NCBI GenBank assembly: GCA_029224465.1
Contig: JAQXUQ010000002.1
Coordinates: 62,001 to 126,000, forward strand
Source of the DNA: Bacillota bacterium
GTDB taxonomy: Bacteria > Bacillota > Clostridia > Lachnospirales > Lachnospiraceae
Length of the DNA stretch: 64,000 bases
Reading direction: 5' to 3'
Of this stretch, positions 976 through 36,307 are shown one piece after another (position 1 is the first letter of the stretch; the number at the start of each line of letters is the position of its first letter). The notes under the pieces are model-generated. The model had not been told where the DNA came from. It ran no database searches and saw only the letters and a list, made by a program, of their open reading frames with translations. Both the position numbers and the translations under genes were made by a program.

Positions 976-1034
976 ATTCCATTCCTCCATAACTATATGA
1001 TGCATATTGCTATGAGTCATCTTACATAACATCT

Positions 1035-1063
1035 ATTATAAGACTTTGACAAAAAAATATCGA
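1035..1063 (-). promoter_or_regulatory. Candidate promoter of the left thiolase
   Basis: On the minus strand a perfect -10 box TATAAT (1040-1035) is preceded at 17 bases by TCGATA, a partial -35 (4 of 6). It lies 60 bases upstream of the thiolase ATG. The -10 is strong and the -35 weak. Confidence 0.55.
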
Positions 1064-1071
1064 GCCTTATA

Positions 1072-1089
1072 ATGATATTTATTTAACAA
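1072..1089. promoter_or_regulatory. Weak Rex-like operator upstream of the left thiolase
   Basis: Rex operators in Clostridia follow TTGTTAA-N4-TTAACAA. Here one half is perfect (TTAACAA on the + strand at 1083-1089) and the other, at 1072-1078, matches 4 of 7. It sits just upstream of the candidate -35. Much weaker than the site at 10024; listed because both thiolase promoters have one. Confidence 0.3.
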
Positions 1090-1134
1090 TGTTTTACCCG
1101 TACTTTTGTGCAAGTTTCAGCCGGAGAAAGAGCC

Positions 1135-1152
1135 GCGCAGCACCTGCTGCGC
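1135..1152 (-). terminator. Possible weak terminator after mtnA
   Basis: An inverted repeat GCGCAGCA-CC-TGCTGCGC lies just after the mtnA stop; on the minus strand it is followed by GGCTCTTTCTCC. The tail is a poor T-tract, so this may only be a stabilising hairpin. Confidence 0.35.
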
Positions 1153-1163
1153 ACGGGAGATTT

Positions 1164-2279: not shown

Positions 2280-2331
2280 AAATGCTCCTTATTCTAATCG
2301 TATACATTGCTGCCGCATCCGGGCGGCCGCC

Positions 2332-2817
2332 TCACATGGTAATGTCCGCGTATTCGCCCTGGTCCGCGCGCAGAAGATCGTCCGGCGCCAGCTCGATCTG
2401 GCAGCCGATTTTTCCGCCGCTGACATAAATCTTGTCCTGTTTCGCGGCCGAACTGTCGACTCTTGTGACAAATTGCTTCTTCATGCCGATCGAGGTGCAG
2501 CCGCCGCGGACGTACCCGGTCAGGCCGAACAGGTCCTTGACATGGATCATTTCAACCGACTTCACGCCGACCGAGCGGGCGCAGGCCTTGAGATCCAGCT
2601 CCTTCTCAATCGGAATCACAAAAACATAATAGTTTTTATCATTGCCTTCGGTAACCAGTGTTTTGAAGACTTTTTCGTGTGGAAGTCCCAGCTTGTCCGC
2701 CGTCTGAATGCCGTCCACAAACTCGCCGGCCTCATAAGACATGTGTGTGTACGGAATTTTCATCCGGTCGAGAATCCGCATTGCGTTTGTTTTGACTTCC
2801 TTCTCTTTTTTCGACAT
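2332..2817 (-). CDS. ybaK: Cys-tRNA(Pro)/Cys-tRNA(Cys) deacylase, YbaK family
   Basis: A trans-editing enzyme that hydrolyses misacylated Cys-tRNA(Pro). The 161 residues match the single-domain YbaK fold: Lys in EKVFKTLV (about 50), IPIEKELDLKA, and the hallmark GYVRGGCTSIGMKK (about 101-114). The start MSKKEKEV is preceded by AAAGGAAAGGCTGAAT. The ATG lies inside the 3' end of pdxK, an 86-base overlap, so translation is probably coupled. Confidence 0.93.
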   Translation of the reverse strand: MSKKEKEVKTNAMRILDRMKIPYTHMSYEAGEFVDGIQTADKLGLPHEKVFKTLVTEGNDKNYYVFVIPIEKELDLKACARSVGVKSVEMIHVKDLFGLTGYVRGGCTSIGMKKQFVTRVDSSAAKQDKIYVSGGKIGCQIELAPDDLLRADQGEYADITM

Positions 2818-3667
2818 ATTCAGCCTTTCCTTTCAAACTGCGCAGCCGGTCAACCAGGTATGGCAGCGCCTCTTCAAAATTGACGCCGTACCAGCGGTGA
2901 TGTTCATCCGCCATCGTGACGCGGACGCAGGCCAGCGTGTAGTCAACGGCCAGCCGGACGGCGTCGCCGAGAGAAAAGCCATTCATCAGGCCGCCGAGCG
3001 TCACACTCGCGAAGATGTCGCCGGTTCCGTGAAAAACAACCGGCAGCTTCTCATTGACATAAGCCCTGAATTCATCTTTATCCCGTTCATAGGTCAGCGC
3101 GCCGATTTCGCCCCTGCCGTAGGAAAAACCGGTCAGGATCACATTCTTCGCTCCCTGATCCGCCAGCCTCTTCACGATGTCTCTGCAGTAAAGCTCGTCT
3201 CCGCCTTCGCGGTAAGGTGTCCCGGTCATGATGCAGGCCTCCGTCAGATTCGGAGCGATCACATCCGCGTGACTGCAGAGTTTTTGCATGGCGGCGGCGA
3301 ATTGACCGGTAAATCCTTTATATAAAGAGCCGCCGTCGGCCATCGCCGGATCCACAAAAAGAAGCTCGGACGGCGCCGTAAACTCTTTCTGCAGCTTCCG
3401 GACGAGTTCGATCTGCCGGATGGAACCAAGATATCCGGAATAGACTGCCTCGAACTGAAATTTCTGCTGCTTCCACACCTCCAGGATTTTCGGGATTTCA
3501 TCGGTCAGATCATGAAACGTAAAACTGCTGAACGCGGTATGATTCGATAGAACAGCAGTCGGAAGCACCGCCGTTTCCATTCCCATGGCTGAGAGGATCG
3601 GCAGGGCTGTCGTAAGGGAACATTTGCCGACGCAGGAAATGTCCTGAATGGTGACGATTCTCTTCAT
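2732..3667 (-). CDS. pdxK: Pyridoxamine/pyridoxal kinase, PfkB/ribokinase superfamily
   Basis: Phosphorylates pyridoxal-type vitamers to supply PLP. The N-terminus MKRIVTIQDISCVGKCSLTT is typical of the Firmicutes PdxK/PdxY-like group; VDPAMADGG (about 115) and the GTGDIFAS anion hole with catalytic Asp (about 215) are visible. GGAGGACAAACGAGA precedes the ATG. At 311 residues it is about 25 longer than usual: after YLVDRLRSLKG the frame continues for a lysine- and arginine-rich tail inside ybaK. In another frame a TGA lies immediately before the ybaK ATG, so the tail may come from a late frameshift. Own promoter at 3712-3740. Confidence 0.9.
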   Translation of the reverse strand: MKRIVTIQDISCVGKCSLTTALPILSAMGMETAVLPTAVLSNHTAFSSFTFHDLTDEIPKILEVWKQQKFQFEAVYSGYLGSIRQIELVRKLQKEFTAPSELLFVDPAMADGGSLYKGFTGQFAAAMQKLCSHADVIAPNLTEACIMTGTPYREGGDELYCRDIVKRLADQGAKNVILTGFSYGRGEIGALTYERDKDEFRAYVNEKLPVVFHGTGDIFASVTLGGLMNGFSLGDAVRLAVDYTLACVRVTMADEHHRWYGVNFEEALPYLVDRLRSLKGKAEYVEKREGSQNKRNADSRPDENSVHTHVL

Positions 3668-3711
3668 TCTCGTTTGTCCTCCGGCCTTGCTTTTTTGTTA
3701 CGCTGCCTTAC

Positions 3712-3740
3712 AGTATCCACCATGTCAGGGCAGATGTCAA
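3712..3740 (-). promoter_or_regulatory. Promoter of pdxK-ybaK-mtnA
   Basis: TTGACA at 3740-3735, a 17-base spacer, then GATACT at 3717-3712. It lies between the etfA terminator and the pdxK ATG, 44 bases upstream of that start, so it separates this operon from the butyrate operon. Confidence 0.7.
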
Positions 3741-3833
3741 AGGCTGGCGGCGCCTCTCCATCGGGCGGCGTCCTCGTGTTCGCCGCTCTGCCTTTCGAGA
3801 TGACACGCGCTGCAGAAGGCAGCCCGCTGTGCG

Positions 3834-3874
3834 CAAAAAAACTGCTGTCCGAAACCGATCGCCCGGACAGCAGT
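3834..3874 (-). terminator. Rho-independent terminator of the butyryl-CoA operon
   Basis: A perfect 11-bp stem (ACTGCTGTCCG / CGGACAGCAGT, 3841-3851 with 3864-3874) with a 12-base loop, followed on the minus strand by a T-tract at 3840-3834. It lies 27 bases after the etfA stop. Confidence 0.92.
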
Positions 3875-3901
3875 CTGTAATTTTAGTATTCAGCCTGAAA
3901 A

Positions 3902-4966
3902 TTACGCGTTCTTCTTCGCGTCGATCGCAGCCTTCAGCTTCTGTGTAAGCAGCGGAACGACCTTGTTCAGATCACCTACGATACCATAGTCGGCAACATC
4001 GAAGATCGGAGCGTTTTCATCCTTGTTGATCGCAATGATGATGTCGGAATCTTCCATGCCTGCTACGTGCTGGATTGCGCCGGAAATACCGATGGCGAAG
4101 TAAACGTGCGGACGGACGGTTTTGCCGGTCTGGCCGACCTGCATATCCTTCGGCATCCAGCCGGCGTCAACAACGGCACGGGAGCAGGATACAGTCGCGT
4201 TCAGAACCGAAGCGAGATCCTCCAGCAGCTTGAAGTTCTCGGGGCTGCCGACACCACGGCCGCCGGAAACCAGAATCTTGGCTGCCTGAATATCCGCTAC
4301 CGTTGAAACTTCCTTGACAATCTTCAGAATCTCGGTGTAGCAGCTGTTCGGTGTCAGATCCGGATGGAAAGCAATCTTCTCTGCCTTATGCGCTCTGTCC
4401 GGAGCTTTCTTCTGCATAACGCCGGGACGGACGGTTGCCATCTGCGGCCTGTAATCCGGGCAGGCAATGGTAGCGATCGTGTTGCCGCCGAAAGCGGGAC
4501 GGGTCATCAGAAGCTGTTTATGCTTCTGCTCCGCCTCATGTCCGGGAACAGCAACGAGAGGGAAGTCGCCGATTTCAAGCTTTGTGCAGTCTGCAGTCAG
4601 ACCTGTATGAATCTTCGCGGAAACGCGGGGACCAAGGTCACGACCGATCGCGGTTGCGCCGACCAGCAGGATTTCGGGTTTGAACTTCTCTACGATCGCC
4701 TGAACAGCATCGGCGTAGGGTTCTGTTCTGTAATCCTTGAGCTCGGGATCATCTACAACGATGACCTTGTCCGCGCCATAAGCACCGAGTTCGTCTACAA
4801 GGTCATCACCGAGGCCGGAGCCAAGCAGAATGGCCGTAACTTCCTTGTCGTCAAGATCGTTTGCAAGATCTCTCGCCTTGCCCAGAAGCTCCAGCGCGAT
4901 GGGGCTGAGCTTGTTATCCACCTGCTGGGCAAAGATATATACTCCCTTATATTCTTCTAAAGCCAT
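3902..4966 (-). CDS. etfA: Electron transfer flavoprotein, alpha subunit
   Basis: Partner of EtfB; carries electrons to or from butyryl-CoA dehydrogenase, in Clostridia probably with flavin-based bifurcation (family knowledge). The start is taken at MALEEYKG (4966), preceded by AAGGAGGAAACAGCA; the longer frame to 5008 lacks a site and overlaps etfB. The 354 residues end in the FAD domain: SGGRGVGSPENF, SRAVVDAGW, QVGQTGKTVRP, the ETF-alpha signature GISGAIQHVAGM and AINKDENAPIF. Last gene of the operon, 13 bases after etfB, followed by a strong terminator. Confidence 0.97.
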   Translation of the reverse strand: MALEEYKGVYIFAQQVDNKLSPIALELLGKARDLANDLDDKEVTAILLGSGLGDDLVDELGAYGADKVIVVDDPELKDYRTEPYADAVQAIVEKFKPEILLVGATAIGRDLGPRVSAKIHTGLTADCTKLEIGDFPLVAVPGHEAEQKHKQLLMTRPAFGGNTIATIACPDYRPQMATVRPGVMQKKAPDRAHKAEKIAFHPDLTPNSCYTEILKIVKEVSTVADIQAAKILVSGGRGVGSPENFKLLEDLASVLNATVSCSRAVVDAGWMPKDMQVGQTGKTVRPHVYFAIGISGAIQHVAGMEDSDIIIAINKDENAPIFDVADYGIVGDLNKVVPLLTQKLKAAIDAKKNA

Positions 4967-4979
4967 TGCTGTTTCCTCC

Positions 4980-5771
4980 TTAGATAACATGCTTCTCATC
5001 AAGCACATTTACGATATAATCTGCCGCCTCATCCGGTGTCTCCGGAACGACCTTGACGCCTTTGCCCTTGGCAACCTTATCGGAAGCCTTGGCAATCAGC
5101 GTAGGAGAACCTGCTTTGCCGAGGTTGGAATCCTCAACATCCTTCAGATCCTTTCTTCCCCAGACCGTAACTTCCTTCTTGAACGCGTCGAAAATTCCGC
5201 CGGGCGTCATATATCTGGGCTTGTTGAGCTCGGACATGCATGTAACAAGGCAGGGCATCTTCGCCTTGACAATATGATATCCATCATCATACTGACGCTT
5301 AACCGTGATGGTCTTCTCCGCTTCATCAACAGAAATCTCCTGCGCGTAGGAAATCAGCGGCAGGTGCAGGTGCTCGGAAATCTGCGGGCCAACCTGTGCG
5401 GTATCGCCGTCGATAGCCTGACGTCCGGTAAAGATCAGATCGTAATCAAGGTTTCTGAGAGCGCCCGCGATCGTCTGGGATGTTGCCCAGGTGTCCGCGC
5501 CGCCGAGAACTCTGTCGGTTACGAGGATGCCGTTGTCCGCGCCCATAGCCATGGCTTCGCGGAGAACCGCGTCTGCCTTGGGAAGTCCCATCGTCAAAAC
5601 AGTGACCTCCGCGCCAAACTGATCCTTCAGCTTCAGAGCTGCTTCCAGCGCTGCCTTGTCATCCGGATTCATGATGGCGAGCATGGCGCCTCTGTCGAGC
5701 GTTCCATCGGGTTTAAATTTAACGCCGCCCTTTGTATCAGGGACCTGCTTAATGCATACTACTACTTTCAT
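4980..5771 (-). CDS. etfB: Electron transfer flavoprotein, beta subunit
   Basis: Second subunit of the Etf heterodimer; in bifurcating Etfs the beta subunit carries the FAD where NADH is oxidised (family knowledge). The 263 residues start MKVVVCIKQVPDTKG and show the ETF-beta pattern DPDDKAALEAALKL, TMGLPKAD, GRQAIDGDTAQVGPQISEHL (about 128-147) and CLVTCMSELNKPRYMT. GGAGAGGAGCAGAAC precedes the ATG. It lies 28 bases after bcd and 13 before etfA. Confidence 0.97.
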   Translation of the reverse strand: MKVVVCIKQVPDTKGGVKFKPDGTLDRGAMLAIMNPDDKAALEAALKLKDQFGAEVTVLTMGLPKADAVLREAMAMGADNGILVTDRVLGGADTWATSQTIAGALRNLDYDLIFTGRQAIDGDTAQVGPQISEHLHLPLISYAQEISVDEAEKTITVKRQYDDGYHIVKAKMPCLVTCMSELNKPRYMTPGGIFDAFKKEVTVWGRKDLKDVEDSNLGKAGSPTLIAKASDKVAKGKGVKVVPETPDEAADYIVNVLDEKHVI

Positions 5772-5799
5772 GTTCTGCTCCTCTCCTTGTCACGGCACA

Positions 5800-6960
5800 T
5801 TACTTTAACAGCGCGCCGGAAATAACCATGCGCTGAACTTCCGAAGTTCCTTCGTAGATCTCCGTGATCTTCGCGTCACGCATCATACGCTCGACTTCGT
5901 ACTCTCTGATGTAGCCATAGCCGCCCATCAGCTGTACGCATTTTGTGGTTACGTCCATTGCCGTCTCTGCCGCGAAAAGTTTTGCCTTTGCAGCTTCAAC
6001 AGAATATCTGTCCTTTGTCTTCTTGGCTTCCGCAGCCTTGTAAACAAGGAGCTGTGCAGCTTCGATCTCTGTAGCAAGATTTGCGAGCTGGAACTGTGTG
6101 TTCTGGAATGCGGAAAGGGATCTGCCGAACTGTTTTCTCTCTTTAACATAAGCGAGCGTTCTGTCAAAAGCACCTTCCGCAAGGCCAAGAGCCTGCGCGG
6201 CAATACCGATACGGCCGCCGTCCAGTGTGTGCATGGCGATCGGGAAGCCCTTTCCTCTCGGTCCGAGCTGATTCTCTGCGGGGATCTTGCAGTCCTGGAA
6301 AATCAGTTCATAGGTAGAGGAGCCGCGGATACCCATCTTGTTCTCTTTCGTTCCGAAGGAGAAGCCGGGTGTATCCTTGTCAACGATGAAAGCAGTGAAC
6401 TTCTTCTGCTTTCTGCCCTTCTTGTCTTCTACGATGTCCGTGTAAGCAATGATGATATAAACATCCGCTTCCTTACCGTTTGTGATGAAGCACTTGGAAC
6501 CGTTCAGTGTCCAGTATTTTCCGTCCTCGGAAAGGACTGCCTTTGTCTGCACGCCCTGCGCGTCCGTGCCGGCGCCGGGCTCTGTCAGGCCGAATGCGCC
6601 GAGCTTTCTGCCCGCTGCCAGATCAGGGATGTATTTCTGCTTCTGTTCTTCGGTGCCAAATGTCATGATCGGATCCATGCACAGAGATGTGTGTGCGGAT
6701 ACGATAACAGCTGTTGTGCCGCAGACTTTTGCGAGCTCTTCGATGCACATAACATATGTCAGAGGATCGCAGCTCTGTCCGCCGTATTCCTTCGGAATCG
6801 GAATGCCGAGGAAGCCGCTCTTCGCCATTTTCTCAACAGTTTCTCTCGGGAATTTCTCGGTCTCATCGACTTCGATCGCAAGAGGCTTTACTTCTGTTTC
6901 AGCGAAATCCCTGAACAGGGATCTTGCCATTTCATGTTCCTGGCTTAACTGAAAGTCCAT
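5800..6960 (-). CDS. bcd: Butyryl-CoA dehydrogenase (short-chain acyl-CoA dehydrogenase)
   Basis: Reduces crotonyl-CoA to butyryl-CoA with electrons from EtfAB. The 386 residues have the three acyl-CoA dehydrogenase parts: helical N-terminus (MDFQLSQEHEMARSLF), beta domain with FGLTEPGAGTDAQG and NGSKCFITNG (about 125-165), and C-terminal domain with AAQALGLAEGAFD, QLMGGYGYIREYEVERMMRD and IYEGTSEVQR, whose Glu (about 368) is the catalytic base. AAAGGAGATTGAACG precedes the ATG. Membership of the crt-hbd-bcd-etfBA operon supports the C4 specificity. Confidence 0.96.
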   Translation of the reverse strand: MDFQLSQEHEMARSLFRDFAETEVKPLAIEVDETEKFPRETVEKMAKSGFLGIPIPKEYGGQSCDPLTYVMCIEELAKVCGTTAVIVSAHTSLCMDPIMTFGTEEQKQKYIPDLAAGRKLGAFGLTEPGAGTDAQGVQTKAVLSEDGKYWTLNGSKCFITNGKEADVYIIIAYTDIVEDKKGRKQKKFTAFIVDKDTPGFSFGTKENKMGIRGSSTYELIFQDCKIPAENQLGPRGKGFPIAMHTLDGGRIGIAAQALGLAEGAFDRTLAYVKERKQFGRSLSAFQNTQFQLANLATEIEAAQLLVYKAAEAKKTKDRYSVEAAKAKLFAAETAMDVTTKCVQLMGGYGYIREYEVERMMRDAKITEIYEGTSEVQRMVISGALLK

Positions 6961-6988
6961 CGTTCAATCTCCTTTGGTTTTATTGCAG

Positions 6989-7035
6989 ATTATCCCGGCG
7001 GACCACACTGCGCGGCGGCCTGCGCCGGGGATAAT
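6989..7035. other. Long intercistronic hairpin between hbd and bcd
   Basis: ATTATCCCGGCG (6989-7000) pairs with CGCCGGGGATAAT (7023-7035) with one bulged G; the loop is itself GC-rich. No T-tract follows in the direction of transcription. It may stabilise or process the polycistronic mRNA. Confidence 0.55.
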
Positions 7036-7047
7036 TGTAGAAGCGGA

Positions 7048-7926
7048 TCAGAGCTGGTCTACCGGTGTCTTGGTGTGATCAGCATTGTAAACATAGAAGC
7101 CGCGGCCGGTCTTTACGCCGAGGTGCTTCGCTCTTACCATCTTGCGGAGCAGCGGGCTTGCCGCGTATTTATTGTCATGCGTATCATTGAACAGAACGTC
7201 CATGATCGCCAGAACGACATCCAGTCCGATATAGTCGCCGAGTTCGAGCGGTCCCATCGGATGATTGCAGCCAAGCTTCATGGCTGTATCAATGCCTGCG
7301 ATATCAGATGTGCCTGTATAGTAAACATTGATGCCTTCGTTGATCATCGGAACGAGGATACGGTTAACAACGAAGCCTGCAGCCTCATTAACCTGAACCG
7401 GAACCTTGCCGATCTGCTCGGAGATCTTCTTGACAGCGTCAATCGTCTCTGCAGGTGTGTTCGCGCCGGCAATAACTTCAACGAGCTTCATAACGGGTGC
7501 CGGGTTGAAGAAGTGCATGCCTACGATCGGCTTGGAAAGGCCCGCGCCGATTTCCGTGATCGAAAGAGAAGATGTGTTGGAAGCGAAAATGCAGTCCGGA
7601 TTCTTGACGATCTCATCCTGCAGTTCGCGGAAGGTCTGCTGTTTGAGGTCCATTCTCTCAAGAACCGCTTCAACAACCAGATCCGGATCGACCGCCTGTG
7701 TGTTCAGGCCGGTCTGAACCTTTGCCAGAATCGCGTCAGCCTTCGCCTGCTCCATCTTTCCCTTCGCAACTGCTCTGTCCAGCTGCTTCTTGATCTTGCC
7801 CTTGCCGCCATCCGCGAATTCCTGCTTGATGTCGCAAAGATATACCTTCTCAACCGCATCGTTCTGGGCAAATGCCTGCGCGATACCGGAGCCCATTGTG
7901 CCGGCGCCAATAACTGCTACTTTCAT
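7048..7926 (-). CDS. hbd: 3-hydroxybutyryl-CoA dehydrogenase
   Basis: Reduces acetoacetyl-CoA to 3-hydroxybutyryl-CoA. The start MKVAVIGAGTMGSGIA (7926) is chosen because GGAGGTAACAGCA precedes it; the longer frame to 7956 places the start before that site. The 292 residues have the Rossmann GAGTMGSG motif (7-14), ASNTSSLSITEI, the catalytic-His segment GMHFFNPAPVMKLVEV (about 138) and the C-terminal GYDGTGRG-like helix domain (NHPMGPLELGDYIGLD). Between crt (46 bases) and bcd (87 bases containing a hairpin). Confidence 0.97.
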   Translation of the reverse strand: MKVAVIGAGTMGSGIAQAFAQNDAVEKVYLCDIKQEFADGGKGKIKKQLDRAVAKGKMEQAKADAILAKVQTGLNTQAVDPDLVVEAVLERMDLKQQTFRELQDEIVKNPDCIFASNTSSLSITEIGAGLSKPIVGMHFFNPAPVMKLVEVIAGANTPAETIDAVKKISEQIGKVPVQVNEAAGFVVNRILVPMINEGINVYYTGTSDIAGIDTAMKLGCNHPMGPLELGDYIGLDVVLAIMDVLFNDTHDNKYAASPLLRKMVRAKHLGVKTGRGFYVYNADHTKTPVDQL

Positions 7927-7972
7927 TGCTGTTACCTCCATGTGAAATATGTTCAAAGCTCACTTTTAAGAA

Positions 7973-8767
7973 TTACTTATTCTGGAATGCTACGTGCTTA
8001 ACCTTCTTCGGATCGTCCTTCTTGCGGAGGAAGTTCGCCATGCCTTCCTTCTGGTCCTCGCTCTCGAAGCAGTCGCCAAAATACTTCTCTTCCAGCGCGA
8101 CACCTTCGCTGATGGAAACCTGGCAGCCTTCATTGATCGCTTTCTTGCAGTTGCGGACCGCAATCGGAGCGTTGCCCGCGATTGTCGCAGCAAGCTTCTT
8201 CGCCGCGGGAAGCAGTTCTTCCTGTGGATAGACCGCGTTTACAAGCCCGATTCTGTAAGCTTCATCTGCCTTGATGTTGCGTGCCGTGTAGATGAGCTGT
8301 TTTGCCATGCCCATGCCGACAAGGCGTGCCAGCCTCTGCGTGCCGCCGAAGCCGGGTGTAATTCCAAGGCCGGCCTCCGGCTGTCCGAAGACCGCGTTGT
8401 CCGAGCAGAGCCGGATATCGCATGCCATCGAAATTTCATTGCCGCCGCCGAGCGCGAAACCGTTGATTGCCGCGATGACAGGAATCGGGAAGGATTCGAT
8501 CTCAAGGAACAAATCGTTTCCCTTCTTGCCGAACGCTGTGCCTTCCGCCTTTGTCAGTGTAGACATCTCTCCGATGTCCGCGCCCGCGACAAACGACTTG
8601 TCGCCTGCCCCCGTCAAAACAAGGCAGCGTACTGTCTCCAGGTCCACACCGTCAAATACCTTCTTCAGGTCATCCAGGACTTCCGAATTCAGCGCGTTTA
8701 ACGCCTTCGGACGGTTGATCGTGATCACGCCGACCGCGCCTTCTACTTCATAATCAACATAACCCAT
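7973..8767 (-). CDS. crt: 3-hydroxybutyryl-CoA dehydratase (crotonase)
   Basis: Dehydrates 3-hydroxybutyryl-CoA to crotonyl-CoA. The ATG at 8767 (MGYVDYEVEGAVGV) sits 7 bases after GGAGG; an upstream ATG at 8773 is only 1 base from it. The 264 residues are a standard enoyl-CoA hydratase: FVAGADIGEMS (oxyanion hole, about 62), GFALGGGNEISMACDIR with the first catalytic Glu (about 106-122) and GQPEAGLGITPGFGGTQRL with the second. The protein ends with the usual basic helix. Confidence 0.97.
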   Translation of the reverse strand: MGYVDYEVEGAVGVITINRPKALNALNSEVLDDLKKVFDGVDLETVRCLVLTGAGDKSFVAGADIGEMSTLTKAEGTAFGKKGNDLFLEIESFPIPVIAAINGFALGGGNEISMACDIRLCSDNAVFGQPEAGLGITPGFGGTQRLARLVGMGMAKQLIYTARNIKADEAYRIGLVNAVYPQEELLPAAKKLAATIAGNAPIAVRNCKKAINEGCQVSISEGVALEEKYFGDCFESEDQKEGMANFLRKKDDPKKVKHVAFQNK

Positions 8768-8793
8768 GCTCATACCTCCAATACAAGAAACCC

Positions 8794-9978
8794 TTAGTCT
8801 TCGTATCTCTCAACGACGGTCGCGCAGCCCATGCCGCCGCCGATGCACAGTGTCGCAAGACCTCTCTTGGAATTTCTCTTCTGCATCTCATACAGCAGTG
8901 TCGTCAGAATTCTGGCGCCGGATGCTCCGACCGGATGTCCGATCGCGATCGCGCCGCCGTTGACATTCAGCTTGTCCATATCAAAGTGAAGCTCTTTGCC
9001 AACCGCAACGGACTGTGCCGCGAATGCCTCGTTTGCCTCATACAGATCGAAATCGTCAATCGTAAGGCCGGTCTTTGCAAGGACCTTCTTCGTCGCCGCT
9101 ACCGGGCCGACACCCATAATCGAAGGATCAACGCCGCCAAGCGCTCCTGCAACCCAGACTGCCATCGGCTTTACACCAAGCTCTTTGGCTTTCTTCTCGG
9201 ACATAACAACGATTGCGGATGCGCCGTCATTGATGCCGGACGCGTTGCCTGCAGTCGTTACGCCGCCTTCGTTAATCGGGCGGAGCTTCGCGATATCCGC
9301 TGCCGTCTGCGGTCCGCGGGGGCCCTCGTCGGTATCGAAGATCACGGTCTGCTTCTTCTGCTTGACCTCTACAGGAACGATCTCGTCCTTGAACTTGCCC
9401 TCTTCCATTGCCTTGGCCGTCTTGGTCTGCGACCATGCGGCGAACTCATCGAGTTCTTCTCTGGTGAGTCCCCACTGCTCTGCTACATTATCTGCGGTCT
9501 TGATCATGTGATAATTGTTGAAAGCATCCCAGAGCGCGTCATTAACCATCGTATCAACCATGGTTGCATTGTTCATACGGTAGCCGAAACGGGCCTTGGT
9601 CAGCGCGTAAGGAGCCATGGACATGTTCTCCATACCGCCGGCAACAACAACATCAGCTTCACCCGCCCTGATGATATCCGCTGCAAGATTAACAGCATAC
9701 AGGCCGGAGCCGCATACGACATTCAGTGTAACAGCCGGGCATTCAACCGGAAGTCCCGCGTTGATGGATGCCTGTCTTGCGACGTTCTGTCCCTGCGCCG
9801 CCTGAATGACGCAGCCCATGAAAACCTGATCGACGTCTTCAGGCTGAATGCCCGCACGGCTGATGGCTTCCTTGATAACGATCGAGCCGAGCTTTGCTGC
9901 GGGTGTTGTGGAAAGAGCGCCTCCCATCTTTCCTACTGCCGTACGGCAAGCACTTGCAATAACAATTCTGTCTGCCAT
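8794..9978 (-). CDS. thlB: Acetyl-CoA acetyltransferase (thiolase), first gene of butyrate operon
   Basis: Forms acetoacetyl-CoA from acetyl-CoA. The start is taken at 9978 ([20 protein letters not shown]): GGAGG lies 6 bases before it, while the ATG at 9984 directly abuts that site. The 394 residues show the nucleophile Cys in [11 protein letters not shown] (about 88), [11 protein letters not shown] (catalytic His, about 350) and CIGGGMGCA (second Cys, about 379). It opens the thl-crt-hbd-bcd-etfB-etfA operon. A close paralogue is at the left edge of the window. Confidence 0.97.
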
Positions 9979-10023
9979 GATCATCCTCCATTATTCTTTG
10001 CGTGTTCAGACTGATGTAAAAGA

Positions 10024-20261: not shown

Positions 20262-21050
20262 TCACCCCAGCGCCATTCTGTCACTGACTTCCGCGCCGGC
20301 TTCCTCAAATCTCGCAAGAAGGTCCGAAACATGGAGTTTCTTCTTGTCCTCGCCGCCGACATCATAAATAATATGCCCGTTACTCATCATAATCAGGCGG
20401 TTACCGTGCGCAATCGCGTCCCGCATGTTGTGTGTGACCATGAGCGTTGTCAGATGATTGTCATTGACAATGCGGTCGGTGGCTGCAAGAACCTTGGCCG
20501 CGGTCTTCGGATCGAGCGCCGCGGTGTGCTCGTCCAGAAGGAGCACCTTCGGTTTCTTCATGGTCGCCATCAGAAGCGTCAGCGCCTGCCGCTGGCCGCC
20601 CGAAAGAAGCCCGACCTTGGCTGTCAGCCGGTCTTCGAGTCCCAGATCCAGGCTCTTCAAGAGTTCCATGTACTGCTGCCGTTCTTTATTGGACACGCCC
20701 CAGCGGAGCGTCCTCCTCTGTCCGCGTCTCGCGGCAAGCGCCATGTTTTCATCAATCTGCATATCGCCGGCCGTACCGGTCATCGGATCCTGAAAAACAC
20801 GTCCCAGAAACGGTGCTCTTTTATACTCCGAAAGCCCGGAGACATCGGTTCCGTCAATGATGATCTGCCCGCTGTCCACCGGCCATACGCCGGCGATCGC
20901 ATTCATGATCGTCGATTTTCCGGCGCCGTTACCGCCGATGACCGTCACGAAATCACCGTCCTGCAGTGTCAGACTGACATTTTCCAGCGCTTTCTTCTCG
21001 TTGATGGTTCCGGGGTTGAATGTTTTGGAGATATTTCTGACTTCTAACAT
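20262..21050 (-). CDS. ABC importer ATP-binding protein (ABC.X4/TrpXYZ type)
   Basis: ATPase of an uptake system of the 'putative tryptophan/tyrosine' ABC.X4 family. The ATG is taken at 21050: it shares one base with the permease stop (TGATG) and follows GGAGGAG; an in-frame GTG lies one codon earlier. The 262 residues show Walker A GGNGAGKST (about 39), Q-loop VFQDP, signature LLSGGQRQALT and Walker B VLLLDEHTAALDP, the DEHTAALDPK form being typical of this family, and switch MVTHNMRD. Confidence 0.92.
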   Translation of the reverse strand: MLEVRNISKTFNPGTINEKKALENVSLTLQDGDFVTVIGGNGAGKSTIMNAIAGVWPVDSGQIIIDGTDVSGLSEYKRAPFLGRVFQDPMTGTAGDMQIDENMALAARRGQRRTLRWGVSNKERQQYMELLKSLDLGLEDRLTAKVGLLSGGQRQALTLLMATMKKPKVLLLDEHTAALDPKTAAKVLAATDRIVNDNHLTTLMVTHNMRDAIAHGNRLIMMSNGHIIYDVGGEDKKKLHVSDLLARFEEAGAEVSDRMALG

Positions 21051-22018
21051 CACTTCTCCTCCTTCTTCGAAGCAAGCTTCGCGTTGCGTCTTGCCAGTCC
21101 GCGGAAAGAGCTGGTCCTGATCTGCTTGAGGTACGGTACCGCGAGGAAAATCGCGACTACGATCGCCGTAAGCAGCTTCATATCATCAGCCGGGAACTTC
21201 AGCCAGAGGACAAAGACATATACGAAATAATACACGATCGCGCCGATGACCGTAAACGCAAGGCGCAAAACAAACCCCAGCCGCTTCCCCAGAATCGCCT
21301 CGGCAAGCACTTCGCCGATAATGACCGCGGCAAGGCCGATGACAATCGAGCCCTGTCCCATTTTGACATCCGCGAAGCCCTGATACTCTGTCAGGATTCC
21401 GCCGGAAAGCGCGATCAGCCCGTTGCTGACCGAAAGTGCAATGACCTTCATCAGATTTGTATTGATGCCCTGCGCGCGGGACATATTCTGGTTGATGCCG
21501 GTCGCGCGGATCGCGCTGCCGATCTCCGTGCCGAGGAACCAGTAAATAACGCCTACGATGACAACGTCAACGATCAGTGTGAGCGCGATCGTCTGTCCGA
21601 GATACCGGATATTCGAAGTGAAATGAACCGTCACCTGTCCTGCAGGTACTGCCTGATTGGCCTTTCCCATGATATTCAGGTTAATCGAGTACAGGGAAAT
21701 CTGCGTCAGAATTCCGGCAAGAATATCCGGAATGCCGAGGACCGTGTGCAGAATTCCCGTGACAAGTCCCGCGAGAAGTCCGCATAAAAACGAGATCAGA
21801 AGCACCGCTTCGGGGCTCCAGCCGGCAAGGATCAGCATGACCGCGGTGGCGCCGCCGAGTGCAAAAGATCCGTCGCAGGTCATATCCGCGAAATTCAGGA
21901 TACGGAATGTCAGATATACGCCAAGTGCCATGATGCCCCAGATCAGACCTTGCGCCAGACCGCCGGGCGCGGCGTTCCAGAGCGCCTGCGGGTTCAGGGA
22001 TGCAAAATACGCTGCCAT
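21050..22018 (-). CDS. ABC importer permease (ABC.X4/TrpXYZ type)
   Basis: Membrane subunit of the importer, 322 residues with about eight to nine hydrophobic segments, in the fold shared with branched-chain amino acid permeases (LIWGIMALGVYLTFRILNFA, MTCDGSFALGGA). GAGGAGAATTTC precedes the ATG. It follows the binding-protein gene after a hairpin terminator, and overlaps the ATPase gene. Confidence 0.92.
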   Translation of the reverse strand: MAAYFASLNPQALWNAAPGGLAQGLIWGIMALGVYLTFRILNFADMTCDGSFALGGATAVMLILAGWSPEAVLLISFLCGLLAGLVTGILHTVLGIPDILAGILTQISLYSINLNIMGKANQAVPAGQVTVHFTSNIRYLGQTIALTLIVDVVIVGVIYWFLGTEIGSAIRATGINQNMSRAQGINTNLMKVIALSVSNGLIALSGGILTEYQGFADVKMGQGSIVIGLAAVIIGEVLAEAILGKRLGFVLRLAFTVIGAIVYYFVYVFVLWLKFPADDMKLLTAIVVAIFLAVPYLKQIRTSSFRGLARRNAKLASKKEEK

Positions 22019-22061
22019 GAAATTCTCCTCACTGTTCGAAATGCTGCTTCGCTGCTGATAA

Positions 22062-22092
22062 GAAAAACAGCGCAGGCACCAGACCTGCGCTG
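22062..22092 (-). terminator. Terminator between binding protein and permease genes
   Basis: CAGCGCAGG (22068-22076) pairs perfectly with CCTGCGCTG (22084-22092), and on the minus strand TTTTTCTT follows. Partial read-through would give more binding protein than permease, as is usual for ABC importers. Confidence 0.82.
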
Positions 22093-22207
22093 CCGTTACT
22101 ATTATATGCTACTTCCTGCCGTTCAAACCATAAAAACTTTACCGCTTACTGAAAGGAATCTTCTGTTTTCCCCCGGAAAGCGTACCGCGGAAATCATTCT
22201 TTCCGGA

Positions 22208-23260
22208 TTACTTCTCAATCGCGACATAGTCGGAAGGAATCGTGAAGCCGATCGCGTCCGCGTAGTCCTTGTTGTACTTCTTGGTTGTTGTCTTCGCGTA
22301 TCCGATGGGGAGCGTCGAAACATCCGCGCCGTTTGCAAGAATCTCGACTGCCTGCTCGCCTGCCGCCTCTCCGATATCGTAGTAGTCAATCGAAAGCGTG
22401 GCAAGACCGCCGTTGGAGCACATATTCTCCTCGCCGCAGATGATCGGCAGCTTTGCGGGCTCCGTGATGTTCTTGATGATCGTCATGTTCGATGCCGCTG
22501 TGTTGTCAGTCGGGATATACATGACATCGCAGTCGGATACCGCAGACTGTACAACGGACTGCAGGTCATTGGAATCCGCGAACGTGTATTCCTGATATGC
22601 GATCTTGTCCGCGTCCAGATAGCCTTCGATCTTGTCCGCCTGGAACTTGGAGTTTGCTTCCGCCGAGCAGTACAGGATCGCGACCTTCTTCGCGTCCGGA
22701 ACCAGTTCCCTGATCATCGCCTCCTGCTGGTCAAGCGGCGCGAGGTCGGATGTGCCGGATACATTCATACCGGTTGTGCCGGAGAAATCTTTCAGATTCA
22801 GAGCAGTTCCGTAGTCCGTAATCGAGGTCCCCAGAATCGGGATATCGGTTGTCGCGGCAACCGCTGCCTGCAGTGCCGGTGTCGCATTCGCGAGAATCAG
22901 ATCATACTGGTTCGAAACAAAGCCGTTGACAATCGTCGCGCATGTCGCGGAATCGCCCTGCGCGTTCTGGTAGTCGATTGTTACATTGTCGCCGAACTTG
23001 TCCTTGAGCGCATCCTCAAAGCCCTTTGTGGCTGCGTCGAGCGCGTCGTGCTGGACGAGCTGGCAGATGCCGACCTTGTATGTTTTGCCGGAATTATCTG
23101 CTGCCTGTGTCGCCGCGGACGAAGATGCTTCCGTCGCAGCCGCAGCCGCTTCCGTCGCCGCTTTTGTCGCTGCTGTATCCGCCGTCTTGCCGGAACTGCC
23201 GCATGCCGTCATGGCGAGCATTGCGCCGGCCAGTGCGAGTGCCATCATTTTCTTTTTCAT
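22208..23260 (-). CDS. trpX: ABC importer substrate-binding lipoprotein (ABC.X4/TrpX type)
   Basis: Extracytoplasmic receptor of the importer. The ATG at 23260 (MKKKMMALALAGAMLAMTAC) follows GGGAGGAAGCTACTT; the longer frame to 23314 has no site. The 350 residues have a lipoprotein signal ending at LAMTAC (Cys20), an Ala/Thr-rich linker, then the periplasmic-binding fold (YKVGICQLVQHDALDAATKG, SVSDCDVMYIPTDNTAASN). The TrpX family binds tryptophan or tyrosine in characterised cases; the ligand here is not proven. Divergent from the dehydratase genes. Confidence 0.9.
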   Translation of the reverse strand: MKKKMMALALAGAMLAMTACGSSGKTADTAATKAATEAAAAATEASSSAATQAADNSGKTYKVGICQLVQHDALDAATKGFEDALKDKFGDNVTIDYQNAQGDSATCATIVNGFVSNQYDLILANATPALQAAVAATTDIPILGTSITDYGTALNLKDFSGTTGMNVSGTSDLAPLDQQEAMIRELVPDAKKVAILYCSAEANSKFQADKIEGYLDADKIAYQEYTFADSNDLQSVVQSAVSDCDVMYIPTDNTAASNMTIIKNITEPAKLPIICGEENMCSNGGLATLSIDYYDIGEAAGEQAVEILANGADVSTLPIGYAKTTTKKYNKDYADAIGFTIPSDYVAIEK

Positions 23261-23331
23261 AAGTAGCTTCCTCCCTGCATCGGAAAACAGAAAAATCCGC
23301 CCCAAAACCGTCAAATCCGGGAATCTGTTGT

Positions 23332-23490: not shown

Positions 23491-24747
23491 ATGAGCGTAA
23501 CCGAAACCTTCGGCAAAACAGTTATAAAAGTTAACAAAAACTACCCCGCGCTCTCCCGCGGCATTCTGCGGGCAGGCTGGGAGGCGGAGGATCTTGTGTT
23601 CCGCTTTCATCCGCACAAAGAGTCATTCCCTGCGGATCAGTATCTCGCGCGGCTGATGATGGATACAATGCTGGCGCCGCTTCGGGCTCCCGGACAGTCC
23701 GTGATCTGCAGCATCTTCACGCCGTGCGAGCTTGTGCAGGAAGCACGGCTCCACCCTTACAACGTGGAGGCCTTCTCCAGCTACATTTCGGCCTCATTCG
23801 CCGAGAGTGCCTGCGTGCAGAAGGCCGAGGAAACCGGCATTTCCGATACGCTCTGCAGCTACCATAAAACATTTCTGGGCGCTGCGGAAAACGGACTGAT
23901 GCCAAGGCCCCGCTGCATTGTATATACAAATGTAACCTGCGACGCGAATCTTCTGACCTTTTCCCGGCTCGCGCACCTTTTTGATGTGCCGGATTTCTTT
24001 GTGCAGGTGCCTTCCGATCCTTCGGAGGACGCTGTCGCCTACGTGCGGGACGAGCTTCTTTCGCTGAAAAGCTTTCTGCAGGAAGTGACCGGCCGCAGCA
24101 TCGACGACGCTGCGTTAAAATCCCGCGTCGAACGCTCGAAGAGAACGCTCTCTTCTTTTGAGGCCTATCAGAGCGCGCGGGCGGACCGCTATGTTCCGTC
24201 CGACCTTGTCACGCCGCTTTACAGCGCGATGACCGCGAACATTCTGCTTGGCACACAGGAAGAAGAAACCTACGTGAACCGGTGTCTTCAGGATCTGCAG
24301 AAGGCAGGTCCGAAGAAAGGAAAACATATCTACTGGATGCACACGCTCCCGTTCTGGTCATCCGCGGTCAAGAAGTATTTTCTGTTCAACGAGGACGCGC
24401 AGATTGTCGGGGACGAGCTGTCGCAGGTATGTTCGTCGGATTTTGACACGGATGATCCCTACCGCGGCATGGCGCAGCGCCTTGTGTATAACGCGCTGAA
24501 CGGTCCCGCGGACCGCCGGATCGAGGCCGGAATAAAACACGCGAAACAGTGCGGCGCCGACGGCGTGATCTGGTTCAACCACTGGGGATGCAAGCACACG
24601 CTCGGCATGGCGCAGCTCGCCAGAGCCGGATTTGAAGACGCGGGACTTCCGACGCTTCTGTTAGACGGCGACGGGTGCGACCGCGCGCACGGCGGCGAAG
24701 GCCAGACGCTGACGCGGATCGGCGCGTTTCTTGAGAATCTGGTCTGA
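23491..24747 (+). CDS. 2-hydroxyacyl-CoA dehydratase D-component family protein (HgdB-like)
   Basis: Family members are iron-sulfur enzymes that remove water from 2-hydroxyacyl-CoA through a ketyl radical, or are double-cubane-cluster reductases. The ATG at 23491 (MSVTETFGKTVIKVNKNYPA) follows AGGAGG; the promoter lies inside the longer frame. In 418 residues the family pattern is clear: ICSIFTPCELVQEARLHPYN (Cys73, Cys79), AEETGISDTLCSYHKTFLGA (Cys122), TNVTCDANLLTF (Cys150) and FNHWGCKHTLGMAQLA (Cys about 367); Cys79, 122 and 367 are plausible cluster ligands. Its 3' end is copied twice downstream. Dehydratase or reductase cannot be decided from sequence. Confidence 0.88.
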   Translation: MSVTETFGKTVIKVNKNYPALSRGILRAGWEAEDLVFRFHPHKESFPADQYLARLMMDTMLAPLRAPGQSVICSIFTPCELVQEARLHPYNVEAFSSYISASFAESACVQKAEETGISDTLCSYHKTFLGAAENGLMPRPRCIVYTNVTCDANLLTFSRLAHLFDVPDFFVQVPSDPSEDAVAYVRDELLSLKSFLQEVTGRSIDDAALKSRVERSKRTLSSFEAYQSARADRYVPSDLVTPLYSAMTANILLGTQEEETYVNRCLQDLQKAGPKKGKHIYWMHTLPFWSSAVKKYFLFNEDAQIVGDELSQVCSSDFDTDDPYRGMAQRLVYNALNGPADRRIEAGIKHAKQCGADGVIWFNHWGCKHTLGMAQLARAGFEDAGLPTLLLDGDGCDRAHGGEGQTLTRIGAFLENLV

Positions 24748-24842: not shown

Positions 24843-26540
24843 ATGGTACATACTGTTCACTACATCTGCAAATACACACCGCTCGAACTCTTCGCCGCGA
24901 TGGGCGCCGAATGCGTCTACGCCAATCACATGCCGGACGGTTTCGGCATTTCCGAATCCGTGATCGGCTCCAACATCTGCGGCTTCGGAAAGTCCCTGAT
25001 TGATCTTGTGAATGCAGGCGGCGTGCATGAACTGATTCTGACAAGCTGCTGCGACACGATCCGCAGCGTCTATGACAACCTGCAAAAGAGCGGAAAGCTG
25101 AACTTCCTGTTCTATCTCGATATCCCGCACGCGGAGTCCGGCTGCACCAAAACGCAGCTTTCCTTCCAGTTAAAACAACTTGTCCGCGCGTACTCTGCGT
25201 ACAGCGGAAATTGTTTTGACCGGAATAAATTTGCAGAAGCAATGAAGCTCTCACACGTGCAGCAGATCCGGCCGAATTCTCCGTACATCAGTATTCTCGG
25301 CGGGCGCGCGGGCATCGAGCTGCACAAAGAAGCTTTGAAGGAGATGCCGCTGCCCGTGCACAACGACACCTGTGTCGCCGGCAGAAGCGTCGGCGAAAGT
25401 CTGCCCGATCCGTCTCTGTCCTTTGACGAGCTGATGGACTGGTACGCCGGCGAGCTCCTGTCTCAGCTTCCCTGTATGCGGATGATTGACCGCGAGGGTC
25501 GAAAGAGGCTTTACAATGACCCGAATCTGCGGGGTATCATCTACCATACGATCCGGTTCTGTGATTTTTACAATTTCGAATACAGTGAGATCAAAAGTCA
25601 CGTTGATGTGCCGGTGCTGAAGATCGAAACCGATTACACAACCGGCTCGTCAGGGCAGCTTCTGACAAGGCTGCAGGCTTTTGCCGAGGAAATCCGCAGT
25701 ACCTATGCGGACACACCGCAGATTTTCAAAGGGAACAGATCGGGGGGATCAGCAATGAGCAAACAGGATTTTACCTATGTGGCAGGCATTGATTCGGGCT
25801 CCGCGAGCACAGATGTCGTGATTCTGGACAAAGACAGGAACTATATTGCCGGTATCGTTCTTCCAACCGGCGCCGGCGCGGTCATCAGCGCGGAAAAGGC
25901 GCTCGAAGCGGCACTGCAGGAGGCCGGACTTTCACGCGCGGACATCGGCCGCGTCGTGACAACCGGATACGGACGGACATCGATTGAGAATTCCGACCGC
26001 AGCATCACGGAAATCACCTGCCACGCGCGGGGCGCGCATTTTCTTGATCCGTCTGTCCGTACGGTCATTGATATCGGAGGACAGGACAGCAAGGTTATAA
26101 CGCTGGACAGCACGGGAAAGGTTACAAACTTCGTGATGAATGACAAGTGCGCGGCGGGAACCGGCAGATTCCTTGACATGATGGCGCGCACGATGGAAAT
26201 GACGCTGGATGATATGAGCCTTCGCGGGCTGGCTTACAAAGAAGACATCACGATTTCGAGCACCTGCACGGTGTTCGCGGAGTCGGAAGTTGTCTCTCTG
26301 ATCGCGGAAAACAAAGACGTCGACGACATCGTCCATGGTCTCGACAAATCTGTTGCCGCGAAAACTGCAACGCTTGTCGTCAGAGCCGGCGGCAGCGGTC
26401 CTTTCATGATGACCGGCGGCGTCTCGAAGAACAACGGGCTGGTCAAAGCCCTGTCAGAAAAGCTCGGACAGAAGCTGATCATCTCGGATAAAGCCCAGCT
26501 TTGCGGCGCGCTTGGCGCGGCGCTGTACGCGCTGGACTGA
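24843..26540 (+). CDS. HgdB-like domain fused to 2-hydroxyacyl-CoA dehydratase activator ATPase
   Basis: Two proteins in one 565-residue chain. Residues 1 to about 300 are a dehydratase-component domain (YICKYTPLELFAAMGAEC, GSNICGFGKSLIDL, LTSCCDTIRSVYD; Cys9, 24, 46, 69, 70). Residues 305-565 are a complete BadF/HgdC-type activator with ATP-binding GIDSGSASTDVVILD and DIGGQDSKVI, and the two Cys motifs for a bridging cluster, NDKCAAGTGRFLD and SSTCTVFAESEVVSL. GAAAGGATATTTT precedes the first ATG. At the junction an ATG at 25755 has its own GGGGGG site, so a free 261-residue activator may also be made. With the gene before it, it forms a two-gene unit. Confidence 0.9.
   Translation: MVHTVHYICKYTPLELFAAMGAECVYANHMPDGFGISESVIGSNICGFGKSLIDLVNAGGVHELILTSCCDTIRSVYDNLQKSGKLNFLFYLDIPHAESGCTKTQLSFQLKQLVRAYSAYSGNCFDRNKFAEAMKLSHVQQIRPNSPYISILGGRAGIELHKEALKEMPLPVHNDTCVAGRSVGESLPDPSLSFDELMDWYAGELLSQLPCMRMIDREGRKRLYNDPNLRGIIYHTIRFCDFYNFEYSEIKSHVDVPVLKIETDYTTGSSGQLLTRLQAFAEEIRSTYADTPQIFKGNRSGGSAMSKQDFTYVAGIDSGSASTDVVILDKDRNYIAGIVLPTGAGAVISAEKALEAALQEAGLSRADIGRVVTTGYGRTSIENSDRSITEITCHARGAHFLDPSVRTVIDIGGQDSKVITLDSTGKVTNFVMNDKCAAGTGRFLDMMARTMEMTLDDMSLRGLAYKEDITISSTCTVFAESEVVSLIAENKDVDDIVHGLDKSVAAKTATLVVRAGGSGPFMMTGGVSKNNGLVKALSEKLGQKLIISDKAQLCGALGAALYALD
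25742..25757 (+). promoter_or_regulatory. Internal ribosome site and start codon at the activator junction
   Basis: GGGGGG (25742-25747) lies 7 bases before an in-frame ATG (25755-25757) encoding MSKQDFTYVAGIDSGS, the usual N-terminus and length (261 residues) of a stand-alone activator. Confidence 0.65.
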
Positions 26541-35129: not shown

Positions 35130-36275
35130 TTACACGCTTTTAATGAACTCTGTAATAAAATAGCCTGCCGCCCCGATCATGCCGGCCTTCTCCGGCTCCC
35201 GCCCGAGCCGCACATAGTCCGCGCTGTCCGAGAACGGATCTCTTTCCGCAACCAGCCTTCGAAGCTCCGCAAGGTACGGTTCCAGCTGCAGCGATGTCGC
35301 GCCGCCGAGCACGATATCGCAGTCAAAAGCCATCCGCAGATTCGCGATGCCGACTGCCAGATGCTGCAGGATATCATTCCAGAGCGATACGCTGTCTGCG
35401 TTACCCCGCCGGAGCGATTCGAAAAATTCATCGGATGTCCGTCCGATGTCTCTGGTATAACGCAGCGCCCCGCAGTACGATTCGAGGCATCCGCGGCGGC
35501 CGCAATTGCAGAGAAGTCCTCCCGGATGCACACACATATGGCCGAATTCACCGCCTCTTCCATTCGTTCCCTTGTACTGCCTGCCGTCCAGGATCAGGGT
35601 GCCGCCGACACCGTACTCCAGAAGAAGATACGCGAAGTCTCCCTTTCTTCCGTCCGCGGTTTCAAACAAAAGCTCCGCGTACCCGGCGCTGGTCGCGTCA
35701 TTTTCAACGTAACATGGATACGGGACCGCATCCTGCAGGTTCTGCAGGCGGAAATCCCGGATATGCATGGAAGGGGATACCAGAACTTTCTCTCTGTTTT
35801 TATCAATTGCGCCGGGGATCGTTATGCCGACACCGAGGATTCTGCGGCTGTCCAGCCGGTTTTCCTTAATAAATAACGAAAGGCCCGCGGTCAGTGTGCG
35901 GATCAGGCTCTCTCCGTCCTGATCGTTCTGCGCGATTATCTGATCCGCCACCTCATTTCTCTTCAGATCCAGCGCAAGAAACCGGATATGCCCGGCAGTG
36001 AGTTTCACACCGATGGAGACAAACTGCCCGCTGTTCACATTGAAGCCGACCGGAGGCCGGCCCCCGGTCGATTTAATGCCCGTGACTTTCAAAAGCAGGC
36101 CTTCTTCTTCGAGTTCCGCGATGTTCTGGTGAACGGTCGGAAGACTGAGCCCCAGTTCGTAGGTGAGCTGCTGCTGGGTTGCCGGCTCCTTCGCGTAGTA
36201 AATATATTGGAAAACACGATTTTTGGTCTGCGCTCTTCTCCCGGGCGCGGGTTCAAATGCATTCGGAGTTGTCAT
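35130..36275 (-). CDS. ROK family transcriptional regulator (XylR/NagC-like)
   Basis: Repressor of sugar genes released by a sugar ligand. The 381 residues start with a winged helix (TKNRVFQYIYYAKEPATQQQ, LTYELGLSLPTVHQNIAELE, to about 75), then the ROK kinase-like fold with GVGITIPGAID, GVGGTLILDG and the zinc motif GEFGHMCVHPGGLLCNCGRR plus GCLESYCG. Two ATGs (36278 and 36275) are adjacent; the second is better spaced from AGAGG. It precedes the xylB operon on the same strand and most likely controls it and itself. Confidence 0.92.
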   Translation of the reverse strand: MTTPNAFEPAPGRRAQTKNRVFQYIYYAKEPATQQQLTYELGLSLPTVHQNIAELEEEGLLLKVTGIKSTGGRPPVGFNVNSGQFVSIGVKLTAGHIRFLALDLKRNEVADQIIAQNDQDGESLIRTLTAGLSLFIKENRLDSRRILGVGITIPGAIDKNREKVLVSPSMHIRDFRLQNLQDAVPYPCYVENDATSAGYAELLFETADGRKGDFAYLLLEYGVGGTLILDGRQYKGTNGRGGEFGHMCVHPGGLLCNCGRRGCLESYCGALRYTRDIGRTSDEFFESLRRGNADSVSLWNDILQHLAVGIANLRMAFDCDIVLGGATSLQLEPYLAELRRLVAERDPFSDSADYVRLGREPEKAGMIGAAGYFITEFIKSV

Positions 36276-36307
36276 CATGCGCCTCTGATTTTCTGATTAT
36301 GAAAGTT

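Follow-up and report, generated by a model that had tools for sequence, protein, structure and literature searches.

A conserved two-gene cassette with an activase fused to a shortened HGD-D domain and a putative internal start for a free activase

Introduction

ATP-driven activases are, besides nitrogenase, one of the few known biological routes to electrons of very low potential. They pump electrons into a partner protein on ATP hydrolysis. Dehydratases need such activation rarely, while reductases use activase electrons in each turnover. The benzoyl-CoA reductases have two activase subunits per catalytic pair, and DCCP with its reductase forms a 2:2 arrangement.

The metal centers of the closest described systems differ between subunits. 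According to PMC11971306, BzdN and DCCP carry an [8Fe-9S] cluster, of which six irons are held by cysteines in BzdN. The [4Fe-4S] cluster of BzdO is held by Cys95, Cys128, Cys380 and a water or hydroxide, and the coordination in HadB is the same (PMC11971306). The activases themselves are homodimers that share one [4Fe-4S] cluster, as stated in PMC11574389.

Here we describe a cassette in which an HGD-D domain is fused to an activase. A literature search for such a fusion and for double-cubane relatives found no description in the open-access literature; most subscription papers lay outside its scope. Literature searches on YjiM/YjiL and on internal starts in general gave no lead either.

Results

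Organization of the cassette

The window, i.e. the whole 64,000-nt stretch of DNA analyzed, comes from a Lachnospiraceae genome (2.55 Mb, 34 contigs) in which HGD-D matches were found solely in the two genes of the cassette. The features are as follows.

23491..24747, + strand: alpha-type HGD-D subunit (P0002), 418 aa; PF06050 match of 204.6 bits, invariant cysteines aligned with HadB, adjoins the fused gene.
24843..26540, + strand: fused beta-activase gene (P0001), 565 aa; open frame, Pfam and TIGR matches, fusion conserved in relatives.
24843..25694, + strand: shortened HGD-D (beta) domain, approximately residues 1–284; Pfam match and alignment, with invariant C9, C46, C69, C70, C177, C211 and C240.
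25695..25778, + strand: hypervariable interdomain linker; alignment of the fusions and linkers of 43 genes.
25742..25747, + strand: G-run GGGGGG, putative Shine-Dalgarno site of the internal start; sequence reading, linker comparison and ranking within the window.
25755..25757, + strand: putative internal start codon, ATG, codon 305; linker comparison and Shine-Dalgarno energies.
25755..26540, + strand: predicted free activase, 261 aa, the same stretch being the activase domain of the fusion, with cluster cysteines C436 and C475; TIGR00241 and HadI matches.

The first-pass annotation had described an HgdB-like domain continuous with a complete activator. The continuity was borne out: 24843–26540 on the + strand reads as a single uninterrupted frame of 565 codons. 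BcrAD_BadFG (Pfam) covers residues 315–563, and the TIGR00241 activase model scored 243.1 bits on residues 313–561, above its curated cut-off of 125.4. The best solved match of the activase domain was HadI (4eht), with residues 312–565 aligned to residues 2–254. The two cluster cysteines said to be kept in the activator, C436 and C475 (two per monomer), were indeed invariant in 13 of 13 aligned fusions.

On the other hand, the N-terminal part was not a whole HgdB. HGD-D (PF06050) matched it in two stretches, of which 172–284 was the better, with a total of 116.8 bits against a threshold of 28.4 (P0002 was likewise above it). Profile positions of about 130–224 were absent. Judged by this match, the N-terminal domain of P0001 is a shortened HGD-D. 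We infer that the absent stretch is the part that forms the four-helix bundle in BzdN/O, which helps to form the CoA channel (PMC11971306).

The annotation had also placed a separate HgdB-like protein upstream. A 418-aa HGD-D gene was present there, but it was not a second HgdB. Across 10 sequences of its family, three cysteine columns and no others were invariant (C122, C150 and C367 in P0002), each opposite a HadB cysteine, and P0002 aligned best with HadB. By its alignment, P0002 is an alpha-type, HadB-like subunit.

The alpha gene adjoined the fused gene in 31 of 32 neighborhood loci by clustering and in the remaining one by tblastn (L037 and L099 are from one genome, and the alpha copy in L110 is frame-split). 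The two genes overlapped by four bases in several loci (L038–L040, L042–L045), if the earliest start codon is assumed. Besides alpha, no gene family recurred beside the cassette in the 32 loci except transporter-like ATPases (12 loci), so the surroundings gave no clue to the substrate. A promoter scan remained at chance level; a terminator scan gave 10 hits versus 3.9 in shuffled sequence. A plasmid search returned no record in which one place covered 80% of the query.

Several neighboring genes could be named by reading. Three genes on the − strand at 20262–23314, divergent from the cassette, read as an ABC transporter (ATPase, permease and lipoprotein-type binding protein). At least 13 kb upstream of the cassette, in 1–9984 (− strand), the starts of the open reading frames read as thiolase, electron-transfer flavoprotein-like, acyl-CoA dehydrogenase and crotonase genes, i.e. 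a butyrate-type pathway. In another genome (G393; L113, 8091–13387), two genes follow the cassette: the first codes for a 214-aa protein, by reading a flavodoxin-like or iron-sulfur flavoprotein, and the second for a double-activase protein of 1,432 aa. The 214-aa gene has a relative close to the cassette in L109 as well, and the 214-aa product in L113 is a possible electron donor.

Comparison with known enzymes

The N-terminal domain contained seven invariant cysteines (C9, C46, C69, C70, C177, C211 and C240) in 13 sequences. When its profile was compared with solved structures, DCCP was the best match (1.8e-24), followed by HadC, BzdN and MbdN. Reading off the alignment, C9, C46, C70, C177, C211 and C240 pair with DCCP cysteines, which we take to be the ligands of the double-cubane cluster. 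In BzdN, five cysteines paired, and the cysteine at 211 was displaced by two residues. In HadC, an alanine lay opposite C177, and C9 fell outside the alignment. From the aligned cysteines, alpha resembled BzdO/HadB, and beta resembled BzdN/DCCP.

The DCCP, Had and Bzd models scored below their cut-offs. The DCCP model NF040772 (cut-off 350) gave 63.8 bits for P0001 and 54.1 bits for P0002. The HadB and HadC models (cut-offs 750 and 700) gave 47.2 bits for P0002 and 23.9 bits for P0001, respectively. The BzdN, BzdO and BzdQ models gave 19.7, 37.6 and 172.2 bits against cut-offs of 453.8, 448.6 and 380.2.

The cassette shared some features with each of the following systems and differed in others. 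DCCP/DCCPR (PDB 6eno, 7yyl; E. coli YjiM/YjiL) includes the best solved match of beta, with six cysteines in register, and an activase of the same family (7yyl_E). However, DCCP is full-length and homodimeric (PMC11971306) and has a separate activase, whereas the beta of the cassette is shortened, fused to its activase and paired with an alpha gene. The bzd-type class I benzoyl-CoA reductase (BzdN/O/P/Q, PDB 8s02) likewise combines one subunit that has the [8Fe-9S] cysteine set with one three-cysteine subunit, and it would agree with two activase domains for each catalytic pair; BzdP and BzdQ, however, are separate subunits, and the bzd models were far under cut-off. In the HadBC/HadI dehydratase (PDB 3o3m, 4eht), HadB resembles alpha, and HadI is the nearest activase by sequence. 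It differs in that the activator of the cassette is fused, the equivalent of C177 is missing in HadC, and the cassette lacks recurring metabolic neighbors.

Proteins of approximately 1,430 aa in the same genomes also contain activase domains within a longer chain. They differ from the fusion in having two activase domains per frame and lower scores. The one other activase above cut-off in the window's genome was such a double activase, in a 1,432-codon frame, and it had no HGD-D match.

Conservation of the fusion

Scanning contigs with only the N-terminal domain yielded 11 loci, of which nine had an intact fused frame. The loci came from two Lachnospiraceae MAGs, Blautia sp. MSJ-9, two Spirochaetaceae, a Syntrophomonadaceae, a Peptococcaceae, Syntrophaceticus schinkii (two loci), a Woesearchaeota and a Thermotogae MAG. 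Both S. schinkii loci were frame-broken, and one of them extends into the activase.

Profile searches with the N-domain alignment were extended to further genomes, with E < 1e-50 taken as a strong match and the genome at the center of each search included in the counts. Strong matches were found in 10 of 391 genomes of the class, 28 of 200 sampled genomes of the family of Blautia sp. MSJ-9, two of 247 genomes of the phylum of a Spirochaetaceae MAG and one of 236 genomes of the phylum of the Woesearchaeota MAG. Ten weaker genomes in the class search, with partial matches (best E 2.6e-25 to 4.9e-21), are outside the strong count.

Nine of the 10 strong matches in the class were single fused frames (551–595 aa), as were 26 of the 28 in the Blautia family (551–708 aa). 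For seven of the latter 28 (open frames of 558–708 aa), the fusion was called from the in-frame activase match and not from the junction sequence. One more family member (L093) was cut by the contig end. The remaining genome, the same in both lists, had a frame break inside the N-domain, away from the junction. The open frame of L093 (350 aa) was considered as a candidate for a junction stop and rejected, since the contig ends inside the activase.

Six further matches in the Spirochaetaceae phylum (E 8.5e-47 to 7.5e-34) lay in open frames of 351–399 aa and are unfused relatives. L073–L078 are full-length unfused HGD-D proteins with similar cysteine motifs, the nearest unfused relatives of beta that were found. 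In the genus of the window, G008 has a separate dehydratase-like gene and an activase of another subfamily (36% identity).

The relatives were also read for a stop codon at the junction, and none was present in 43 distinct fused genes and L052. The same architecture recurred in independent genomes of several phyla, at identities between 96% and 39%. On these alignments, the fusion is old, and is present in Lachnospiraceae, other Clostridia, Spirochaetota, a Thermotogae and a Woesearchaeota genome. Frame breaks were seen in a few fused genes: L056/L067 (G336 = G1135), L041 and L046 (S. schinkii) and L009 (G005). Those that could be placed sit in the beta domain or the activase, not at the junction, and may represent decay or assembly error.

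In a maximum-likelihood tree of 40 of the 43 fused and 20 free activases, in which some branches are long, a single branch separated the fused activases from the free ones (support 78/96, present in 78% of bootstrap trees). An earlier tree that was missing most of the free activases did not give a single fused group (two changes). The tree topology fits a single fusion event, without proving it.

The junction start

The linker, from the end of beta to the activase, was hypervariable, ranging from 19 to 75 residues among the 43 genes. This set omits identical copies, the frame-broken L009, L046 and L056/L067, and L052, which was read separately. It retains L013 and L093 (truncated by the ends of their contigs), L041 (activase frame-broken) and L011 (contains N).

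In the window, the junction ATG at 25755 is preceded by GGGGGG (25742–25747) 7 nt upstream, as had been noticed at first. Its predicted hybridization to the 16S tail was −14.6 kcal/mol, ranking first of 407 internal in-frame ATGs of the window, which came from 51 largely non-overlapping open reading frames of at least 150 aa in a mechanical list that may include non-genes. The second strongest internal site of the window (−13.1 kcal/mol) belongs to codon 248 of the gene at 35130–36278 (− strand), by reading a ROK-type regulator. In the nearest relative (L007), GGGAGG takes the place of the G-run. In L091, a GTG takes the place of the ATG at codon −4, and an ATG at −10 (six codons upstream) is preceded by AAGGAGGTG.

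An in-frame linker ATG was found in 33 of the 43 genes. It lay 3–13 codons ahead of the GID motif of the activase in 30 of 43, when methionine frequency alone predicts 29%. In sixteen genes, it was at codon −4 (MYVLGID or alike). The mean hybridization to the 16S tail was −9.3 kcal/mol for the best linker ATG, similar to −8.9 kcal/mol for the genes' own starts (35 genes). In contrast, 618 other in-frame ATGs of the same genes averaged −4.1 kcal/mol (Mann-Whitney p 1e-16, with the sequences being related).

The site energy peaked sharply 5–8 nt 5' of the linker ATG. At 7 nt, 28 of 33 genes had a 9-nt segment that reached at least −5 kcal/mol in strength, and at 13 nt no gene did. The same spacing peak was obtained when the last ATG was taken without choice by energy.

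Synonymous codons were resampled with the protein fixed. The real site was stronger than the mean in 29 of 33 genes (combined p 1.4e-4), with five of the 33 individually significant at 0.05. The mRNA was predicted to be less structured around the ATG than on average in the same gene (−3.8 versus −9.7 kcal/mol), and this held for 32 of 33 genes. Base composition explained most of this weakness; what remained beyond shuffled sequence was small (p 0.016). The linkers with a start were purine-rich (70% around the ATG). With regard to relatedness, there were 24 clusters at 70% identity, of which 16 had at least one start and site. These comparisons suggested that the gene probably makes both a tethered and, from the internal start, a free activase.

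Members without the start

No linker ATG was found in 10 of the 43 genes (L040–L043, L048–L051, L053 and L054), nor in L052. Judged by these linkers, the junction start is conserved widely, not universally.

A good site was also absent in nine of the 10 ATG-less linkers, and the best 9-nt energy averaged −5.2 kcal/mol, versus −9.0 kcal/mol in linkers with an ATG. The exception was L048, which had a good site (−9.8 kcal/mol) ahead of a TTG codon that could itself be the start. The site and the ATG were thus not perfectly tied. Three other genes (L010, L011 and L055) had only weak linker ATGs; a stronger GTG lay far upstream in L010. The start changed state at least five times on one tree and at least four times on another.

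A standalone activase was found in nine of 10 genomes without the start versus 10 of 28 with it (Fisher p 0.008). For this count, 38 of the 43 genes were used (without L010, L011, L013, L041 and L093), the weak ATG of L055 was scored as no start, and a free activase was a match above the TIGR00241 cut-off in an open frame of less than 400 aa. There were three independent contrasts of start loss against free activase, and the sign test was not significant. We take the counts as a hint that absence of the start is accompanied by a free activase gene elsewhere.

G454 (a Spirochaetaceae MAG, which may be incomplete) had neither the start nor another activase match, and the fusion alone may be enough there. 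G455 (Woesearchaeota) and G456 (Thermotogae), also MAGs that may be incomplete, kept the start, and the fused gene was their sole activase match.

Discussion

Proposed mechanism

The best explanation, which we hold with somewhat more confidence than doubt on the present comparisons, is a two-gene cassette for ATP-driven electron transfer in which a tethered and a free activase pair. A single [4Fe-4S] cluster held by three cysteines would sit in alpha, where the substrate probably binds, and the beta domain would bind a six-cysteine double-cubane [8Fe-9S] relay, as suggested by the aligned cysteines. The activase domain fused to beta would drive electrons into beta upon ATP hydrolysis. Since an activase is a dimer that shares one cluster, an alpha-beta unit would need two activase domains, and the fusion supplies one per beta. 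The internal start, recognized by comparison, would supply the second as a predicted free product. Their pairing would give a permanent complex composed of one alpha, one beta and two activase domains, similar to that of the class I benzoyl-CoA reductases. A reductase needs ATP-driven electrons in every turnover, so a permanent tether would fit a reductase better than a rarely activated dehydratase.

A more specific version is put forward tentatively, as we doubt it somewhat more than we trust it. One gene would encode both halves of a heterotypic activase dimer with a built-in ratio of 1 alpha : 1 beta : 2 activase, in an uncharacterized ATP-driven reductase of bacteria and archaea. Lineages in which the start was lost would rely on the fusion by itself or on a free activase borrowed from elsewhere.

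The two-product arrangement offered by the first-pass annotation therefore gained comparative support from the ATG, the site and their spacing. Not every member depends on the start, since several lineages lack it. The dehydratase label became doubtful, as the cysteine pattern is that of double-cubane reductases; membership in HGD-D holds.

Alternative explanations

A 2-hydroxyacyl-CoA dehydratase of amino-acid or lactate fermentation, with beta fused to its activator, is a possible though less favored identity, and is compatible with either view of the start. Both subunits belong to HGD-D, the HadB-type alpha has the three cluster cysteines of a dehydratase, and the activase is nearest to HadI. 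The genome has one gene of the CoA-transferase family, on another contig. On the other hand, the alanine of HadC facing C177, the low scores of the HadB and HadC models and the lack of recurring neighbor families other than alpha and the transporter-like ATPases argue against it. Dehydratases of this class have a separate activator; here the activator is fused, although a free form is predicted.

Alternatively, the fused chain may work alone, with two beta-activase chains dimerizing through their activase domains (2:2) and the junction start left as a relic or a minor leak. The members without a linker ATG, particularly G454, and the DCCP-like cysteine set and best structural match of beta agree with this. 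A relic should, however, decay in a hypervariable linker, yet in different phyla the ATG, its site and the spacing persist in place or at a new position, and codon choice favors the site. We consider this explanation unlikely.

Shine-Dalgarno-like sequences have been proposed to slow ribosomes, and the purine-rich junction might be a translational pause for co-translational folding between the domains rather than a start. The purine-rich linkers and the good site without an ATG in L048 would suit a pause. In 28 of 33 genes, however, the site is spaced from an in-frame ATG as at a start, and the sites of the ATG-less linkers (L048 excepted) are weaker on average; both points make this very improbable.

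Recent loss of a stop codon between two genes, as a strain-specific change or assembly error, was suggested by the first-pass annotation and is rejected with near certainty, as nothing was found in its favor for the fusion and the architecture is the same down to 39% identity in independent genomes. A few relatives do carry breaks of the frame, at other places in the gene.

Implications

The fusion with its putative internal start is a variant of the HGD-D/activase enzymes. Internal in-frame translation that gives an extra, shorter subunit of a complex is already known from Cas11b, an unrelated protein (PMC11899642).

If the second product exists, annotation of a single protein misses a product of a common gene, as judged from the strong beta-domain matches in the Blautia sp. 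MSJ-9 family. How an activase dimer docks on an asymmetric subunit pair, and whether it does so lastingly, is to our knowledge known for few enzymes. A gene that hard-wires one activase and makes the second from an internal start would, if true, be a natural tool for this question.
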